A DNA stretch of 31,791 bases, taken from the IMG/VR virus record IMGVR_UViG_3300032086_000459, positions 1-31,791 of that record. The stretch is one strand, 5' to 3'. This document shows, one piece after another, positions 6,452 through 30,799 of the stretch. The notes under the pieces are model-generated. The model searched no databases and was not told the origin of the DNA. It saw only the letters and a program-made list of their open reading frames with translations. Every line of letters starts with the position of its first letter. Position 1 is the first letter of the stretch. The DNA comes from a virus. The translations under genes were made by a program, and so were the position numbers.

Positions 6452-6604
6452 ATGATTATAAATAGTAATAAAATTGAAGTAGTTGTAAACGATAAAGTAT
6501 TATCTGAAGAAGAATACGAATTAACAGATAATGTTTTAACATTTAAAGAAACACCAGATATAGGTGACAAAATAGTAGTTAGGAAAATAGAAGATAATGG
6601 GTAA
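6452..6604 (+). CDS. Stand-alone fiber-module mini-protein (50 aa)
   Basis: ATG at 6452 is preceded by AAGG (6441-6444) with a 7-base gap. The frame ends at 6604, overlapping the next start (6597) by 8 bases. Its whole length resembles one structural module (VVVNDKVLSEEEYEL, LTFKETPDIGDKIVVRK). That module also ends the 460-residue fiber just downstream and occurs in the genes at 12905 and 20494. The pattern is a beta-rich unit: VNG, then xxYTVSG, then TLTFETAP, then IVIR. A free copy next to the fiber gene could be a fiber cap, an assembly factor or a relic of module duplication. Function inferred only from the repeat. Confidence 0.65.
   Translation: MIINSNKIEVVVNDKVLSEEEYELTDNVLTFKETPDIGDKIVVRKIEDNG
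6457..6464 (+). promoter_or_regulatory. T4-type late promoter motif (TATAAATA) inside a short gene
   Basis: Exact octamer within codons 2-5 of the 50-residue gene. A transcript would start near 6470 and serve the fiber gene at 6597. It could be a chance match, since the codons ATT ATA AAT create it. Confidence 0.4.
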
Positions 6605-7979
6605 ACAAACAATCAATGTAGGAACTACAGCCAATGACGGAACGGGTAGTACTATACGAGTTGGTGGTCAAATAACAAATTCAAATTTTACTGAATTGTA
6701 TAATGGTCTAGGTGATGGTTCAACTATATCATTTGACCTTAACACTCAATCACCTACTGATGGACAAGCATTAGTATATAACGCATCCTCTGGTAAGTTT
6801 AGACCAGGTACTGCAACTGCAACCTCAACATTTACAGTTGCTGGTGATGGTGGTTCAAATCAAACTATTACAACAGGTGTAGATACTTTAACAATTCAAG
6901 GTGGTGTTGGTATAACAACTGCTGGTGTTGCAACTGACATTTTATCTGTTGCTATAGATGGTACGGTAACTACACTTACAGGTTCACAAACTTTAACAAA
7001 CAAAAATTTAACTGCAAGTACAAACACATTTAATCCTATTACTTTTGTTGATGACAGTTCTACTGCTTCAACTATTGGTCTAGGCGAAACTTTAAAAGTT
7101 TCAGGTGGTACTGGATTAACTTCAGCAGTTTCAGGTGACACATTAACATTAAATTTAGATAATACTGCTGTTAGTGCAGCCGTTTATGGTAGTTCAACAG
7201 CTGTGCCTGTTATTACTGTTGACGCTCAAGGTAGAATTACAAATGCCACAACAGCAAACATTTCTACAGATTTAAGTATCGTAGATGATAGTTCAACAGC
7301 TGCAACAATTTCACTTTTAAGTGACACATTAAAAGTTGCTGGTGGTCTTGGTATCACTTCATCTATTTCAGGTGATACACTTACAATAGGACAAGACACT
7401 GCTTTTGCAAGTAGTTATTTAAATGCTGTTGCGACAATTGATGTAACCAATAGTGGTGCTTCTGCTTTTTTATTTAATTCACATTATAGTGGAAATAATC
7501 CTACGTTATATTTTAAACCAGGTATAACATACTCATTTAATTTAAATGTATCAGGTCACCCATTTCATTTACAAACAGTTTCAGGCGCTTATAGTTCAGG
7601 TGACGCATATTCAACAGGATTAACACACGTTGCAACAGACGGTACAGTATCAACAGGTGCAAGTGCATTAAATAAACAAACAGGAACATTATTTTATGAA
7701 GTTCCAACTGCGACAAATACTACTATTTACTATGTTTGTCAAAATCATTCTGCTATGCAAGGTAAGATAGTTATAGGTAATATAACAGACAGATCAAATA
7801 CAGGTGACGGTTCAACGACTGCATTTACTATAAATAGTGGTAGAACAGTTGATGATTTAATTGTTATTGTAAACGGTATAACTTTAGTTCCAACAGACGA
7901 TTATACTGTATCAGGAACAACTTTAACATTTGAAACTGCTCCAGCAAGTAGTGCTGAAATAGTAATAAGGTATCTATAA
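6597..7979 (+). CDS. Tail fiber / adhesin with a cupredoxin-like domain
   Basis: 460 residues. The N terminus (GKQTINVGTTANDGTGSTIR, then NSNFTELYN) is a typical marine phage fiber head. Residues about 60-275 are repetitive beta fiber (DDSSTAATISL, DTLKVAGGLGI repeats). Residues about 285-395 look like a type-I copper fold: SGHPFH supplies H321/H324, and YVCQNHSAMQGKIVIG supplies C381, H384 and M387, matching the CxxHxxM of plastocyanin/amicyanin proteins. The last about 45 residues carry the VNG-x-YTVSG-TLTF module. The gene lies between the gp7-like gene and a propeller-like adhesin, and its stop overlaps the next start as TAATG. Fiber role is well supported. Copper binding is inferred from motif alone. 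Confidence 0.75.
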   Translation: MGKQTINVGTTANDGTGSTIRVGGQITNSNFTELYNGLGDGSTISFDLNTQSPTDGQALVYNASSGKFRPGTATATSTFTVAGDGGSNQTITTGVDTLTIQGGVGITTAGVATDILSVAIDGTVTTLTGSQTLTNKNLTASTNTFNPITFVDDSSTASTIGLGETLKVSGGTGLTSAVSGDTLTLNLDNTAVSAAVYGSSTAVPVITVDAQGRITNATTANISTDLSIVDDSSTAATISLLSDTLKVAGGLGITSSISGDTLTIGQDTAFASSYLNAVATIDVTNSGASAFLFNSHYSGNNPTLYFKPGITYSFNLNVSGHPFHLQTVSGAYSSGDAYSTGLTHVATDGTVSTGASALNKQTGTLFYEVPTATNTTIYYVCQNHSAMQGKIVIGNITDRSNTGDGSTTAFTINSGRTVDDLIVIVNGITLVPTDDYTVSGTTLTFETAPASSAEIVIRYL

Positions 7980-9456: not shown

Positions 9457-10161
9457 ATGCCAAGTGAATTTGAAAAAAGACCATTAACAACATACGAAGA
9501 ACCAACAGTACCAGCCGAAGAAGATTTATCAATGTGTTTGTCACCAGAGGACACAAAAACTTTCTATGCCTTAAAAGGTGAAATGAAAGAGAGTTGGGAA
9601 AAAAGACAAATTTACAGAACCGAAGTTGAAATGAGAATAGGTGTTTTAGAGGACTTTAGACATCCAACACCTAGTGCAAAATATTGGCAAGCTGTTAGAG
9701 AAATGTCTCACTATTATGAAAATGTTGTAAATGGTTATTTTGAATATAAAAGAAATGAAATAGAAATTAAAAAAATAGAAAGACAAATTAAAGAAGAAAA
9801 AGATGTTTTAGAAAAAGAATTACTAAACATATCTAAACAAGAATTATTTTTTAAAAGAGCGACTTTGCAACAACATCAAAAAGATCGTATTAGAGAATTA
9901 AGATTATGGTCTAAAATTAAAGCAGAATTAAAAGAAGAAAATCCTAATTTAGAAACTGAAGATGTTAATGAGTCTCAAAAAATATCTTTACCTTTAGAAT
10001 TACAACAAAGATTTAGATTTTTAAAACATAGTCCAGATGTAGGTGGTGCTAAAAATGCAGCTGCACAAATAGAAACTGCTGAAAGATTAAAACGTGAAGG
10101 TAAGTTAGAACCTAAGAATTTATTAAAAAATGATAAAAAGCATAAAAAACTTTCTAAGTAA
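9457..10161 (+). CDS. Coiled-coil hypothetical protein (234 aa)
   Basis: A strong AAGGAG site 5 bases before the ATG fixes the start. The N-terminal about 40 residues are acidic and extended (YEEPTVPAEEDLSMCLSPED). Residues about 45-160 are mostly charged helix with heptads (IEIKKIERQIKEEKDVLEKE), predicting a coiled coil. The C terminus has QQRFRFLKHSP, then a basic tail rich in Lys. It is highly charged, with no membrane segment or signal. The next gene begins inside its last 32 bases. It may be a scaffold or assembly chaperone, but this is a guess; no family recognised. Confidence 0.75.
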   Translation: MPSEFEKRPLTTYEEPTVPAEEDLSMCLSPEDTKTFYALKGEMKESWEKRQIYRTEVEMRIGVLEDFRHPTPSAKYWQAVREMSHYYENVVNGYFEYKRNEIEIKKIERQIKEEKDVLEKELLNISKQELFFKRATLQQHQKDRIRELRLWSKIKAELKEENPNLETEDVNESQKISLPLELQQRFRFLKHSPDVGGAKNAAAQIETAERLKREGKLEPKNLLKNDKKHKKLSK

Positions 10162-10708
10162 AGACGAGTTAAAGTTATCAGTCGCATACTGGAATATAAA
10201 AAAACATACACTTAAACCATGTCCTCAAGTACCTGGTTCATTTTCAGATTATTCAGATACACTAGGAGAAACAATTTTAATTGCAAAACAAAAACTTGTT
10301 GAAAAATATGCAGGTGAAAAACTATTACCTACATATACTTTTACAAGAGTGTATAAAAAAGGTAATACTTTAGAAAAACATTTTGATAGACCTAGTTGCG
10401 AAGTTTCAGTATCTATTAACTTTTATGCAGATAAAGAATGGCCATTAAAATTTAAAAAACTTGAATATGAAAGAGGACCAGTAGATAAAAAAGCAAAAAT
10501 ACAAAGTCTTATTACAAAACCAGGTGACGCTGTTGTTTACGAAGGTATGCAATATGAACACTGGAGAGACGCATACGAAGGTGAGGAATGTGTACAAATT
10601 TTTACTCACTATGTAAGAGCAAATGGTCAGTATAAATTATTTAATAGAGACGGAAGAAAAGATCATAATGAATCTACAAATGAAAGGGTAAAAAGAATAT
10701 GGGGATAA
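10130..10708 (+). CDS. 2-oxoglutarate/Fe(II) oxygenase, prolyl-hydroxylase-like
   Basis: 192 residues, overlapping the previous gene by 32 bases. The N terminus (MIKSIKNFLSKDELK) is the usual opening of this fold. The jelly-roll core shows an HxD at H84/D86 (LEKHFDRPSCEVSVSIN), a turn KPGDAVVYEG at about 130-139, and the distal H144 (MQYEHWRDAYEG) followed by HYV. These supply the iron triad. The usual Lys/Arg about 10 residues after the distal His, which binds 2-oxoglutarate, is not obvious (C154/V155 there). R146 is a possible substitute. It is the first of a tandem oxygenase pair. The substrate is unknown; virion or host proteins are possible. Confidence 0.8.
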   Translation: MIKSIKNFLSKDELKLSVAYWNIKKHTLKPCPQVPGSFSDYSDTLGETILIAKQKLVEKYAGEKLLPTYTFTRVYKKGNTLEKHFDRPSCEVSVSINFYADKEWPLKFKKLEYERGPVDKKAKIQSLITKPGDAVVYEGMQYEHWRDAYEGEECVQIFTHYVRANGQYKLFNRDGRKDHNESTNERVKRIWG

Positions 10709-11319
10709 GATTCACAGAACCAAGATGGAAATCATTAATTGTTAGAACAAACACGCCAATATTTACACCTGAACAATGTGATGATATTATAAGATTAGGA
10801 CAAAGATATACTCCTGAAGTTGCTAAAGTCGGCACTGAAAATATTGATGATAAAAAGAAAAAGGGTGGTACAATTGACAAAAAGAAAAGAATAACACAAA
10901 TTACTTGGATTCCATTTAACGATCCTAACGCAATGCCTATGTATAGTCTTGTTGAAAATGCAATGAATAGAGTCAATACAAATCATTTTGGATATGATTT
11001 TCCACAATTAACAGAATTTGCACAGTTTACTCATTACCCAAAAGGCGCATTTTACGATTGGCATATGGATAGTGAAGTTCATTTTGTTGATGAACCTTTA
11101 GTAAGAAAAATATCAATGACAGTTCTTTTAAATGATCCTAAAGAATTTAAAGGGGGAGAATTACAATTTTTAGATGATGATAAAGATAAAACAAATAATG
11201 ATTTAAAAAGAGGTGAAGCCGTGTTTTTTGCAAGTTATCTACGTCATAGGGTTACTCCAGTTACCCAAGGAGATAGAAAATCTTTAGTAATGTGGTTTGG
11301 TGGACCTCCTTTAAAATAG
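10699..11319 (+). CDS. 2-oxoglutarate/Fe(II) oxygenase, PKHD-type hydroxylase
   Basis: 206 residues. The C-terminal catalytic half is classic PKHD-type: HMDSE gives H122/D124, RKISMTVLLNDP and FKGGELQF form core strands, and LRHRVTPVTQGDRKSLVMWF provides H183 with R193 ten residues later for 2-oxoglutarate. GGPPLK ends the protein as in bacterial relatives. These enzymes hydroxylate amino-acid side chains or small molecules using O2, Fe(II) and 2-oxoglutarate. The gene overlaps the preceding oxygenase by 10 bases, with AAAGGG (10683-10688) upstream. The two are co-expressed, ahead of the gp8 gene and in the middle of virion genes. Confidence 0.9.
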   Translation: MGIRFTEPRWKSLIVRTNTPIFTPEQCDDIIRLGQRYTPEVAKVGTENIDDKKKKGGTIDKKKRITQITWIPFNDPNAMPMYSLVENAMNRVNTNHFGYDFPQLTEFAQFTHYPKGAFYDWHMDSEVHFVDEPLVRKISMTVLLNDPKEFKGGELQFLDDDKDKTNNDLKRGEAVFFASYLRHRVTPVTQGDRKSLVMWFGGPPLK

Positions 11320-15900: not shown

Positions 15901-18900
15901 TGATGACGCAAGTACAATTAATTCTGGTTCAAATGATAGAAGTTATGACGGTACTGGTGCTTCAACAGTTGACTTTGTACAATTTGGTTCAGACGTGACT
16001 TCAGATTTTGAATATTATTTAAATAGAATAGACAAAATCTTTATGACAAGAGAAGGACAACTAAAAGCTATTGCAGGCGCTTCTGCTTTAAATCCGTTAG
16101 AACCTGGCAATTTAGATGGTCACTTACTACTTGCTACTCTACAAATTCCTAGTTATACTTTAGATACCAGAGACGTAATTATAGAAAAAGAAGACAATAT
16201 CAGATACACTATGAGAGATATTGGTAGATTAGAAAGTAGAATTAAAAACTTAGAATACTACACACAATTAACTTTATTAGAGGCAGACGCACAGTCTTTA
16301 CAGATACAAGACGCTGATGGTTTTGACAGATTTAAAAATGGTTTCGTTGTTGATAACTTTACTGGTCACAATGTTGGTGATGTAGGTAATAATGATTACA
16401 AATTATCAATTGATAGAGGAAGAGGTGAGGCAAGAACACCTTTTAACGAAGATGTTGTTGCTTTAGAAGAAATAGATGACGACTTAACTGCAATAGTGGC
16501 AGCAGATAGAACAGCTGCAAACTATCAAAAAACTGGCGATTTAATTACTTTACCATATACTGAGTCAACTTTAATTTCTCAACCTTACGCTACTAAAACA
16601 GAAAATTTAAATCCATTTTTAGTATTTGACTGGATTGGTAACATTGAATTAGATCCACCAGTTGATGAATGGAAAGAAACAAGAGTTGCACCAGAAGTTG
16701 TTGTAAACATAAACGGTACTTTTGATAACCTTGTTAGAGATAGAGGATTAGATAACGCAAGTACAACAGAAATACCTGTTGGTACCGAGTGGAATGAATG
16801 GCAAGATCAATGGTCAGGTAATCCTAGAACGTCACAAAGTTGGCAAGGTAATGCCTTAGTTTCAACTACAAATAGAGACGTTGTACAAACTCGTGCTGGC
16901 ATTAGAACAACAATTATTCCACAAACAATAAGACAAAGTTTAGGTAATAGAGTTGTATCAGTTAACTTTGTTCCATTTATTAGAAGTAGAACAATTACAT
17001 TTACTGCAAGAGGAATGAGACCTAATACTAGAGTACATCCGTTCTTTGATAATATAGATATATCAACTTATGTGACACCAGACGGTGGCGCTTTGGGTGG
17101 TAATGTTGTCACAGACGCAAATGGTTCCGTCACAGGTACTTTTGCAATACCTGATCCAAATACTGCGTCTAATCCAAGATGGAGAACAGGTAAAAGAGTA
17201 TTCAGGTTAACAAGTTCATCTACAAACAGCACAGATAATACAGCAGTTGCTACATCAGCAGAAGCTGATTATGACGCAAAAGGATTATTAGAAACAACGC
17301 AAGAAGCTATTGTTTCAACAAGAGAAGCTAGAACAGTTAGAACAACAACAACTGAAACTAGAAGAACAACAAGATCAACTAGAAATATTGTAAGAATAGT
17401 AAACAATGAACCTGACAATAATGGCGGTGGTGGTGGAGACCCATTAGCACAATCATTTATTATAGATCAGGAAGATGGAGTTTTTATTACAAGTGTTAAC
17501 GCTTACTTTGCTACTAAGTCAAGCACGATACCTGTAAGAGCAGAAATTAGAACGATGGATAATGGTTACCCATCAACAAAAATTCTACCTTTTGCTCAAA
17601 AATATTTAAATCCAAGTTCAGTAAATACAAGTACAGACGGATCAACTGCGACAACATTTACTTTTGACTCGCCAGTTTATTTACAAGAAGGAAGAGAATA
17701 TGTGATAGTTTTATATTCTGACTCAACTGATTATACTGCGTATGTGGCAAGATTAGGTGATACAGTTATTAATGGAGATAGAACAGTATCTAAACAACCA
17801 AATATTGGAGTATTATTTAAATCAGCAAATAATAGAACATGGTCACCAGATCAGATGGAAGATTTAAAATTTGATTTAAAACAGGCAAGATTTGATATAA
17901 CTTCTTCTGGTACTTTAACATTATCAAATGCTACTTTACCAACAAAAACATTAGACTCAAATCCAATTAGAACATTTAATGGTTCAGGAGTTATAAGAGT
18001 ATTCCACAAAAACCATGGTATGCACAGTTCAACTGATAATGTGACTATTGCAGGACTTGCTTCTGGAACATACAATGGTATTGCTCATAGTGATATTAAC
18101 GGAACATACACATCAATTTCTAACATAACTTTAGATAGTTATGATATTACAACTTCAGGTACTGCAACTGCAACAGGTGACATTGGTGGTTCATCTGTCA
18201 CTGCAACACAAAATAGATTATTTGATGTTTTACAATTACAAATAGGTCACGTAGTACATCCAGATACAGCAATTTCAAGTACAATTAGAACAACAACAGG
18301 TAAATCTGTACATGGTTCTGAAACTGCGTTTACTTTAGACGCTGCAACGGCTGCTAATAATACAGTTCTTGGAGACAATATTTACTTTACAGTTCCAAGA
18401 ATGGTTGCAAGTGGTATAAATGAAACAAACGAAATGTCAGGTTCTAAATCTTTTGTTGCTAATTTAACTTTAAGTTCATCAAATGCTAATTTATCTCCTG
18501 TAATTGATTTACAAAGGGTTAATGTTTTTGCAATATCAAACAGATTAAATAATCCAACTGTATCTTCAACTGATACTTTTACAGGTGACGGATCAACAGT
18601 TGCATTTACACTTTCTGGAACACCATCAAGTGTTCATTTATTAAGTATCAAAAAAGATGGTAAAAAATTAACACCAGTTGTTGACTTTACTGTTTCTGGA
18701 ACAACTTTAACTTTAGGAACTGCACCTGCAAGTAATTCAAAAGTAATTGCAAAAATAACAAATACAGTAGATTACGAAGATGATACTGCTACTGAAGGCG
18801 GCTCAAGTGCTGGTTCATATATAACTAAACCAATTAATCTTGCAAATGCTTCAACAGCCTTAGATGTAAGAGTTGCGGCTAGTGTTAGATCAACATCATC

Positions 18901-20494: not shown

Positions 20495-20736
20495 TGGTTA
20501 GATATATTAGAGGAAAAGACGCACCAACAGAAATTAACGTAAGAGAATTTACAGGTGATGGTTCAACCTTAACATCAACGGTCACGCAAGGTATGACAGT
20601 TGATAAAATTTTGGTTACAGAAAATGGAGTTTTACAAAAACCTACTTCCGATTACACTATTTCAGGAACAACAATTACTTTTGCAGCTGCACCTGAAACT
20701 GGAGTACAAGTTTTAATTAGAGAATTGCCAATTTAA
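20494..20736 (+). CDS. Fiber-module protein (80 aa)
   Basis: After an N-terminal head of about 17 residues (MVRYIRGKDAPTEINV) the protein consists of one copy of the fiber module: FTGDGSTLTSTV, then VDKILVTENGVLQKPTSDYT, then ISGTTITFAAAP, then VQVLIRELPI. The same unit is at the end of the 460-residue fiber, near residue 1900 of the 2089-residue protein, and in the free 50-residue protein at 6452. The family looks like a small beta domain of phage fibers. Coupled to the preceding gene by TAATG. Likely a small fiber subunit or connector. Confidence 0.7.
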   Translation: MVRYIRGKDAPTEINVREFTGDGSTLTSTVTQGMTVDKILVTENGVLQKPTSDYTISGTTITFAAAPETGVQVLIRELPI

Positions 20737-23400: not shown

Positions 23401-24003
23401 ATGAGTGAAAATACCCAAAAACAAGTACCTCTTACTTCTACAAAACAATTAGAAACTATTAGACTTAACAATACCTTTTGTTCAATTATACACACCGATA
23501 TTTTAAGTAGTAAACAGTGTGATTTAATTACAAAAGAAATAGTACCTGAGTTATGGGTAGATGTTAATGCTAAAGGTGATTTAATTAAAAATATTAGACA
23601 ACAACCTTTACCTATTAACACAGATGGTTGGCCTTTAACACATATTTTAGCAGGATTAAAAGAGGCAGACAAAGAAAAATTTAAGTTTGATCTAAGAGGA
23701 TTTTTAGAAAATGACGCACCTACTTTATGGGAATATTCTAAAGGTAGTCATTATGATTTACATATAGATATAGGTAATAACTTTCCTACAAGAAAATTAA
23801 GTTTTATAGTTCAATTATCAGACTCAAAAGATTATGAGGGTGGTGATATAGAATTTTTAAATAGTAAAACAGATAAAGAACAACTAAGAAAAAAAGGTAA
23901 GTTAATTATTTTTCCTTCTTTCATAACACACAAAATTACTAAAATAACTAAAGGCACTAGACACGCTATAGTTGGATGGGTTCATGGTCCTACTTTCTTT
24001 TAA
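23401..24003 (+). CDS. 2-oxoglutarate/Fe(II) oxygenase (200 aa)
   Basis: The catalytic core is complete: HYDLHIDIG gives H121/D123, RKLSFIVQLSD and YEGGDIEFL are the core strands, KGKLIIFPSFITHKITKITK gives H177, and R187 lies ten residues later for 2-oxoglutarate. This is the prolyl 4-hydroxylase / PKHD-like jelly-roll family, which hydroxylates protein or small-molecule substrates. The N-terminal 100 residues vary and probably define the substrate. It is driven by a sigma70-type promoter rather than a late one, so early expression is predicted. It is followed by a second oxygenase two bases after its stop. Confidence 0.88.
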   Translation: MSENTQKQVPLTSTKQLETIRLNNTFCSIIHTDILSSKQCDLITKEIVPELWVDVNAKGDLIKNIRQQPLPINTDGWPLTHILAGLKEADKEKFKFDLRGFLENDAPTLWEYSKGSHYDLHIDIGNNFPTRKLSFIVQLSDSKDYEGGDIEFLNSKTDKEQLRKKGKLIIFPSFITHKITKITKGTRHAIVGWVHGPTFF

Positions 24004-24005
24004 AA

Positions 24006-24623
24006 ATGCCTACAATTACAGATAACTCTCGTATAGATAATTTATTTGGTGTAAAAATATTTTACAAAATACTTCCTAATTTAGAAGAAGAAAATAAAAA
24101 AATAATTAACAGACTTTATCTTATTAAAAAAAATGATCCTAAAGGTGTTAATAGATCAAATCAATTAGGTTGGCATAGTCATACAGACTTAATGCAATTT
24201 CCCGAATTAGATGAATTTAAAAAACATCTTAACTTTACTTTAGGTGAAATATTTACATATTACGATTACAAACATGGTTATAAATTAGAATTAGATACTT
24301 GTTGGGGTAATATTAATCCTAAATACGGTTTTAATACAACACACTCTCATCCAAGTTGTTTATGGTCAGGTGTTTATTATTTACAGGTTCCTGAAAACTG
24401 TGGAAATATATATTTTGTAGATCCAATTAAACCTAGAATACATTATGGCGCACAATATAATAACGAAAATAGTGAGTTAGCGTCAACATCTATTTTCTAT
24501 AAACCACAAGTTAGTAAGTTAATTATTTTTCCTGCATACTTAGAACACTTTGTTAGACCCAACTTATCAGACACAGATAGAATATCTTTATCTTTTAACA
24601 TAAGACTAAACGAATATAAATAG
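24006..24623 (+). CDS. Putative 2OG-Fe(II) oxygenase, TIGR02466-like (205 aa)
   Basis: I choose ATG 24006, two bases after the previous stop. An in-frame ATG at 23976 would lie within the upstream gene. The family signature is THSHPSCLWSGVYYLQVPE (H113/H115, about residues 112-130), GNIYFVDP, then KLIIFPAYLEHFVRPNLSDT with H181 and R192, ending ISLSFNIRL. This matches the 2OG-FeII_Oxy_5 / TIGR02466 type common in marine phages. The first metal pair reads HxH rather than HxD. WHSHTDL near residue 57 is the usual N-terminal motif. Cotranscribed with the preceding oxygenase. Confidence 0.85.
   Translation: MPTITDNSRIDNLFGVKIFYKILPNLEEENKKIINRLYLIKKNDPKGVNRSNQLGWHSHTDLMQFPELDEFKKHLNFTLGEIFTYYDYKHGYKLELDTCWGNINPKYGFNTTHSHPSCLWSGVYYLQVPENCGNIYFVDPIKPRIHYGAQYNNENSELASTSIFYKPQVSKLIIFPAYLEHFVRPNLSDTDRISLSFNIRLNEYK
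24615..24622 (+). promoter_or_regulatory. T4-type late promoter (TATAAATA)
   Basis: Exact octamer overlapping the last codons of the oxygenase (TAT AAA TAG), 19 bases before the ATG at 24641. AGGAGA (24630-24635) lies between, so the mRNA keeps a good Shine-Dalgarno. Confidence 0.65.
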
Positions 24624-29341: not shown

Positions 29342-30799
29342 ATGAAAAAAAACTTTGTTATTTTAGGTGGTGGTACAGCAGGCTGGTTCACAGCTTTGTT
29401 TATCAAAAAAGTTAGGCCTAACGATAATGTATCTTTAATAGAAAGTACTAAAATTGGTACAATAGGTGTAGGTGAAGCTACAACACCTAATATAATAAAC
29501 TTTTTTCATTATCTAGGTATTTCTAAAGAAGAAGTAATCAAAAACACAAACGGAACAATCAAAAATGGTATCAGTTTTGAAAACTGGAATGGTGATGGTA
29601 AAAAATATTTTCATGCCTTTTATGAACATCTAACTGATTTTAAACTTGACCCTATATTTTCACACGATTGTTTTGAATTTTATTTAAAAAATTTAATTGC
29701 ACAAAATAAAAACTTAGATGATTATCAGTATTCATCTTTACTTTCATATCAAAATAAAGTAGATGACAAAAACATTTCTTACGCATTACATTTTGACGCA
29801 GGTATGTTGGCTGAGTTTTTAAAGAAAAAAGCATTAGAAAGAGGTATTACACACATTGACGCTGAGTTTGAAAGTTTAACTACAAATGATAAAAATGATA
29901 TTACAAGTATTACATTAAATAACAAACAAACAGTTAATTTAGATTTTATTTTTGATTGTTCAGGTATGGCAAGAAAAATTATAGGTGAACATTATAAACA
30001 AAAATGGATATCCTATAGAGATCATTTGCCTATGAAAAAGGCAATCATAATACCAAAAGAAAAAGAAGATTTATTTCCTTACACAAAAGCGATTGCTTTA
30101 AAACACGGATGGGTTTTTGAAATACCTTTACAACATAGAGTAGGTAGAGGATATATTTTTGACTCAGATTATATCAATGAAGAACAAGCACTTAAAGAAG
30201 TTGAAGAACATTACAATGAGAAAATAGAAGTAAAAAAAGTAATAGATTTTGACGCAGGTAGATTTAAAGATGTATGGATTAATAACTGTATTGCTATAGG
30301 TTTATCATCTACTTTTATAGAGCCATTAGAATCAACTTCATTGTTTTTAACAATAGAACAATTATTAGCATTAAATCATTTTCAAAATACTTGGTTTGAA
30401 AATAATAAACACGATAGAGAATTGTATAATGAATTGTGTAGTAAAAATATGCAAGAGACTTTAAATTTTGTTTACCTACATTACATCACTAAAAGAAAAG
30501 ACAGTCAATTTTGGATTGACTTTCCTAATAAACATAAACCACCTAAAGGTTATGAAGAGAAGATAAAACTTTTAAAAGAAAATAATTTTAGACATTTTGA
30601 TATTTTAGATTTTAAAGTGACTGCAAGTTTTAGAATGACAAGTTATATTCAAGTGGCACGTGGTTTAGATGTTGCTACAAAACCTATTAATGTTAAAAAT
30701 TTTGAAAACATTAGTCCTTCTATTGATGAATATAAAAAATTAATTGAATATCATGCTAAATACGCACCTACAATGGCTGAGTATTTAACAAAACTATAA
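29342..30799 (+). CDS. Flavin-dependent halogenase, tryptophan-halogenase family
   Basis: 485 residues. The FAD-binding Rossmann motif GGGTAGW is at about 9-15, followed by GVGEATTPN (about 42-50). K74 (GTIKNGISFENW) sits where the catalytic Lys of PrnA-type enzymes lies. WVFEIP (257-262) corresponds to the family's WxWxIP. SSTFIEPLESTSLFL supplies the Glu/Ser pair (E330-S331). These enzymes use FADH2, O2 and halide to make HOX, which is steered to the Lys. A cyanophage enzyme of this family that iodinates substrates (VirX1) has been described. This copy is placed between gp15 and gp16 in the late operon. No flavin reductase is seen here. Substrate unknown. Confidence 0.88.
   Translation: MKKNFVILGGGTAGWFTALFIKKVRPNDNVSLIESTKIGTIGVGEATTPNIINFFHYLGISKEEVIKNTNGTIKNGISFENWNGDGKKYFHAFYEHLTDFKLDPIFSHDCFEFYLKNLIAQNKNLDDYQYSSLLSYQNKVDDKNISYALHFDAGMLAEFLKKKALERGITHIDAEFESLTTNDKNDITSITLNNKQTVNLDFIFDCSGMARKIIGEHYKQKWISYRDHLPMKKAIIIPKEKEDLFPYTKAIALKHGWVFEIPLQHRVGRGYIFDSDYINEEQALKEVEEHYNEKIEVKKVIDFDAGRFKDVWINNCIAIGLSSTFIEPLESTSLFLTIEQLLALNHFQNTWFENNKHDRELYNELCSKNMQETLNFVYLHYITKRKDSQFWIDFPNKHKPPKGYEEKIKLLKENNFRHFDILDFKVTASFRMTSYIQVARGLDVATKPINVKNFENISPSIDEYKKLIEYHAKYAPTMAEYLTKL

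Follow-up and report, generated by a model that had tools for sequence, protein, structure and literature searches.

A divergent cupredoxin-like domain with a predicted type-1 copper site in a gp9-type baseplate connector of a T4-like phage

A 460-residue baseplate protein encoded in a 31.8-kb virus record (the whole stretch of DNA analysed here, referred to as the window) carries, at residues 276-397, a domain that we read as a divergent cupredoxin with a complete type-1 ligand set, H321, C381, H384 and M387. We assign a probability of about 0.7 to this reading, in which the domain would bind a metal, copper being the likeliest. The evidence comes from the predicted fold, from the register with cellular cupredoxins, and from the way in which the four residues are kept or lost among viral relatives.

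The connector protein and its surroundings

The original prediction had described the reading frame at 6597-7979 as a phage tail fiber with a type-I copper domain. Translation confirmed the reading frame as well as the residues and positions given for it. The protein is better described as a gp9-type baseplate wedge/fiber connector than as a tail fiber. Its N-terminus matched PF07880 (T4_gp9_10_N) with 29.6 bits, above the cut-off of 25, and the protein matched phrog_677 (E 6.9e-45), which PHROGs labels as baseplate wedge tail fiber protein connector. A comparison with the PDB likewise pointed to similarity of the N-terminus to T4 gp10 and gp9. The N-terminal domain is thus shared with T4 gp9 and gp10 and with the phrog_677 proteins of cyanophages, whereas similarity to T4 gp9 or gp10 could not be found beyond this part; the protein in the window ends in the cupredoxin-like domain and a short C-terminal module. 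If the phrog_677 annotation holds for this protein, it would be a baseplate homotrimer to which the long tail fiber is bound. The features are as follows.

6597-7979, + strand: gp9-type baseplate wedge / tail-fiber connector, 460 residues (PF07880, phrog_677, gp10/gp9-like N-terminus)
6603-7061, + strand: T4 gp9/gp10-like N-terminal part, residues 3-155 (PF07880 match)
7422-7787, + strand: cupredoxin-like domain, residues 276-397 (predicted fold, structure matches)
7557-7559, + strand: codon of H321, predicted first His ligand, immediately ahead of a strand
7566-7568, + strand: codon of H324, a position without a conserved ligand
7737-7739, + strand: codon of C381, predicted Cys ligand, at a strand end
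7746-7748, + strand: codon of H384, predicted second His ligand
7755-7757, + strand: codon of M387, predicted axial Met ligand, replaced by Gln or His in a few relatives
7797-7967, + strand: C-terminal module, residues 401-457, behind the cupredoxin-like domain (also present in Mosig gp9)

Further baseplate wedge genes surround the gene, and neck and sheath genes lie beyond them. The order, a gp25-like gene, a gp6-like gene, the gp9-type gene and then a gp8-like gene, is the same in Pelagibacter phage Mosig, whose gp6-like protein shares 60% identity with that of the window; the corresponding values for HTVC008M and Methylophilales phages are 55-56%. Mosig has the same gp9-type gene with an identical domain order, including the cupredoxin-like domain and the C-terminal module. 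The 460-residue protein is thus a gp9-type connector of a T4-like phage that is closest to Mosig. The gp9-type gene is missing at the corresponding place in HTVC008M, and the gp9-like protein of Melnitz-3 is shorter and does not contain the cupredoxin-like domain.

Several other genes of the window were noted. Two more copies of the C-terminal module occur at 18575-18754 and 20509-20724, one within a 2089-residue protein and one in an 80-residue open reading frame. A PAAR-like protein (1263-1562), below the Pfam cut-off, adjoins the baseplate genes. The regions 10130-11319 and 23401-24623 encode three 2OG-Fe(II) oxygenase-like proteins, and one protein there is labelled ferrochelatase by PHROGs and is not recognised by Pfam. 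A full-length tryptophan halogenase (PF04820, E 6.4e-109; phrog_2928) is encoded at 29342-30799, beyond the neck and sheath genes.

Predicted fold and kinship to cupredoxins

The 460-residue protein has H296, H321, H324, H344, C381, H384 and M387. C381 is the sole Cys, and M387 the sole Met besides the initiator. H321 and H324 lie in the motif SGHPFHL, and C381, H384 and M387 in the motif YVCQNHSAMQGKIVIG, which has a C-x2-H-x2-M loop of amicyanin length. A structure of the domain was predicted with AlphaFold2 from 39 diverse viral copies that had been aligned (mean pLDDT 95.0, pTM 0.88). When the model was compared with the PDB using Foldseek, all top rows were cupredoxins or cupredoxin-fold domains, among them AcoP (E 3.6e-5) and rusticyanin (E 4.2e-5), followed by amicyanin, plastocyanin, multicopper oxidases and nitrite reductases. 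The VIA Z score was 11.3 against domain 2 of NirK (110 residues, 2.3 Å) and 9.3 against rusticyanin (97 residues, 2.5 Å). The model agrees in these respects with the cupredoxin fold at the superfamily level, that is, a Greek-key β-sandwich of seven or eight strands, and residues 276-397 almost certainly adopt it. The comparison of a predicted structure with cupredoxins, which had been proposed as a check, bore out the originally expected fold. Matches in a viral structure library were fiber, connector and lectin-like proteins from many cyanophages, as well as β-sandwich proteins of giant viruses.

In the numbering of the model, H321, C381, H384 and M387 are residues 49, 109, 112 and 115, and the strands concerned span 51-54, 103-109 and 116-121. 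H321 immediately precedes a strand, C381 closes one, and the loop ahead of the last strand contains H384 and M387, which places the predicted ligands as in cupredoxins. A type-1 copper site calls for His, Cys, His and an axial Met or Gln in this order, and its Cys-to-Met loop connects the two final strands; the order and the loop were recognised in the sequence, in the strand positions of the model and in the register with cellular cupredoxins described below. Plastocyanin, amicyanin, rusticyanin, AcoP and azurin share the predicted fold, the His...Cys-x2-His-x2-Met order and the strand positions of the ligands with the window domain, and amicyanin also the length of the Cys-to-Met loop. The GHPF stretch of the window domain is similar to GHN of azurin and to the GHSF motif of rusticyanin.

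Could the motif have arisen by chance in a low-complexity fiber? The protein outside the domain is indeed rich in Ser, Thr and Gly. In 20,000 composition shuffles of the 460-residue protein, however, the pattern H-x(40-90)-C-x2-H-x(2-4)-M never arose, and no other open reading frame of the window contains it. Taking these shuffles together with the confident fold, the Foldseek matches to cupredoxins and conservation across phage families, we rejected a chance origin, whose probability is negligible.

Sequence profiles placed the domain at a distance from the named families. The HMM search against Copper-bind and related Pfam families, also proposed as a check, gave no family assignment: neither the 460-residue protein nor the isolated domain matched PF00127 Copper-bind at its curated cut-off, and the window domain had no match to any Pfam copper family. 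Among the relatives, Copper-bind was the Pfam family matched most often (12 of 39, best E 0.0013). The leading NCBIfam matches were halocyanin, amicyanin and plastocyanin, with the window domain far under the amicyanin and halocyanin cut-offs (12.8 bits against 110.2 for amicyanin TIGR02657). Membership of the Copper-bind or amicyanin families by cut-off was therefore rejected; with no curated copper-protein cut-off passed, we regard the domain as a divergent cupredoxin outside Copper-bind. A phmmer search of PDB sequences with single domains returned mainly antibodies and was set aside. With the domain profile, plastocyanins and amicyanins appeared at E values of about 0.003-0.04, intermixed with antibodies, which have a YYC stretch in common with the domain.

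The register was addressed by a direct profile comparison. Bacteroidota cupredoxins scoring above the Copper-bind cut-off (12 segments) were aligned with the 39 viral copies using hhalign, and this single comparison gave a probability of 95.5 and an E value of 1.6e-8. H321, C381, H384 and M387 each fell opposite a known cupredoxin ligand column. One of the 12 segments (L446) was in the wrong reading frame, which weakens the comparison and does not help it. The domain differs from cellular cupredoxins in its low identity (about 8-26% in structural alignments), in the step of 60 residues from the first His to the Cys, in reaching no family cut-off, and in residing within a virion protein rather than a secreted electron carrier.

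Conservation and joint loss of the ligands

In a first alignment of 26 relatives, the positions of H321, C381, H384 and M387 were invariant. The position of H324, which had originally been proposed as the first His ligand, varied in this alignment and was His in only 29 of 355 copies. H324 was accordingly rejected as a ligand in favour of H321, and a refutation test that rests on the convergence of H324 with the other residues would be misdirected.

The domain is widespread. A tblastn search with the window domain matched 337 phage records, nearly all of them marine cyanophages. In P-SSM4 it is found in gp9 (T4-GC 398) and again in the product of the next gene (T4-GC 399), and it also occurs in other baseplate proteins, long fibers and podovirus fibers. 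Some GC399-type proteins have an HCHQ copy nested inside an HCHM copy; in 831-residue proteins of this type (L230, L195, L203 and relatives), the inserted Gln-type domain sits in a loop of the other and separates the His of the outer domain from its Cys-His-Met. Among cellular sequences, relatives were found in 8 of 198 Bacteroidota genomes, some of them beside CHRD or fasciclin domains; the ligands are retained in those copies that were read. These proteins have the same domain as the phage connector but are cellular, apparently secreted and no part of a virion; the secreted-looking ones (L433-L440) are perhaps an unnamed family of cellular cupredoxins. The only match in a scan of genome contigs was a short one, to a Bacteroidia MAG cupredoxin, and the plasmid searches for the domain gave no match.

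Conservation among viral contig copies is inflated, as they were gathered with short peptide patterns that in part include ligand residues. For this reason, 23 isolate phages (cyanophages, SAR11 phages, OM43 phages and podoviruses) were reached by tblastn, with no ligand patterns. Of their 26 copies, 23 have the His, the Cys-x2-His and the Met; the set is lost in the second copy of P-SSM4 (that of the next gene), in S-B05 and in the first copy of P-HM2. Among 353 distinct copies, 318 keep His-Cys-His (306 HCHM, 10 HCHQ and 2 HCHH) and 35 have no Cys. In the two HCHH copies, at residues 72-160 of the L301 and L303 open reading frames, the axial position is taken by His (CGNHSNH).

These counts bear on the possibility that the cupredoxin fold has been retained only as a scaffold, with the four residues left over or structural and no metal bound. 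Degenerate copies do seem to retain the fold without the ligands, and some related phages do not have the domain at all. The degenerate copies keep the structural positions G309, F314 and Y378, and a model of one was closest to cupredoxins with a VIA Z score of only 7.8, which makes the cupredoxin fold likely but not firm there. Leftover residues, on the other hand, would be expected to erode singly, yet in the 353 copies the Cys never stands without the two His, and the set is gone from 35. After clustering at 60%, the table of His321 against Cys-His was 29/1/0/10 (Fisher 1.3e-8, with shared descent ignored). In a tree from which the ligand columns had been left out, the state changed five times, and a test of independent pairs gave 3:0, too few events for significance. 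About five lineages without the ligands indicate that a metal is dispensable in some phages, while the joint loss of the ligands favours a metal site in the intact majority. We therefore consider a mere scaffold quite improbable for the window domain.

Fold-keeping homologues with varied ligands, which had been named as grounds for abandoning the idea, do exist as a minority (35 of 353), but their ligands were lost jointly and not individually. Predicted fold, register, conservation and concerted loss all uphold the original proposal of a domain of cupredoxin type whose type-1 ligand set is intact.

The metal, its possible role and the setting

A divergent cupredoxin with a metal in its site is the reading we prefer, and the type-1 ligand set, including the Gln variant, points to copper; Gln in the axial position is known from stellacyanin. 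Ten relatives share this feature with stellacyanin, but the Gln occurs only in the sister copy nested in another cupredoxin-like domain and not in the window. That the predicted site can bind copper in vitro seems likely to us.

A real site might nevertheless be filled with zinc, or be empty, in the virion, with Zn(II) from the cytosol acting purely as a structural staple without copper chemistry. Cupredoxins produced in the bacterial cytosol can acquire zinc. The ligand unit is conserved across the relatives, and some of the fourth residues found there (Gln, His) tolerate other metals. Against this, H-C-H with Met or Gln is typical of type-1 copper and not of zinc sites, and the secreted-looking cellular relatives have the same ligand set. 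We judge a site with zinc, or an empty one, unlikely, but zinc is an alternative to be taken seriously.

Returning to copper, we propose that virions hold a metal in the domain of the gp9-type connector and that this metal is most likely copper. Virions are assembled in the bacterial cytosol, which has nearly no free copper, so that loading would be expected at or after lysis; most of it may take place post-lysis or upon contact with a cell. We put the chance that copper occupies the site in mature virions at about even. The metal would staple a small β-sandwich, which would act on the trimeric fibers of the baseplate as a module for adhesion or as a joint, comparable to the Ig-like domains of other phages. 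A stapling or adhesion role would fit the behaviour of the module, which is exchanged between fibers, occurs together with lectin-like and chaperone domains, and is sometimes devoid of the site.

A redox-active or copper-sensing element, in which copper at the host surface switches the conformation of the fiber or electrons pass during adsorption, is possible but less likely. The type-1 ligand set with its loop of amicyanin length would suit it, and a baseplate connector is a plausible place for a switch. No partner, coupling residue or precedent in paper titles and abstracts was found, however, and the domain is common to phages of cyanobacterial, SAR11 and OM43 hosts, which gives no tie to photosynthetic electron transfer. 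The probability of such an element is in our view very low, and if copper is bound, a staple or adhesion role is probably to be preferred.

In a limited collection of titles and abstracts, we found no paper joining cupredoxins or copper with phage tails, tail fibers or cyanophages. The nearest precedent concerns iron: HxH motifs of T4 gp37 and of marine phage fibers bind iron, and such phages are possible metal carriers in seawater (PMC11705849). The connector resembles these fibers in having a metal, here predicted, in a phage tail protein that could carry it in seawater, but in those fibers octahedral iron is held between His pairs of the trimer, with no cupredoxin site (PMC11705849). We therefore regard the fold and the site as known and their place in the phage baseplate as new.

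For annotators, the result is a caution that cupredoxin matches on viral contigs may represent structural proteins and not metabolic genes. A conserved copper-type site in the gp9 of cyanophages and their ocean relatives would add a second metal to iron, which a few phage tail proteins are known to hold and which marine phages have been proposed to carry, and it would concern viruses that rank among the most abundant on Earth. Marine picocyanobacteria are poisoned by copper, and the free form of this metal is scarce; copper bound to virions could thus matter for adsorption, stability and trace-metal cycling. We tentatively suggest, as a possibility rather than an expectation, that the virions of a large share of T4-like marine phages and of some podoviruses may be copper metalloproteins, with many baseplate and fiber sites loaded from the lysate or seawater, and that this may affect adsorption, stability and the copper chemistry of the sea.
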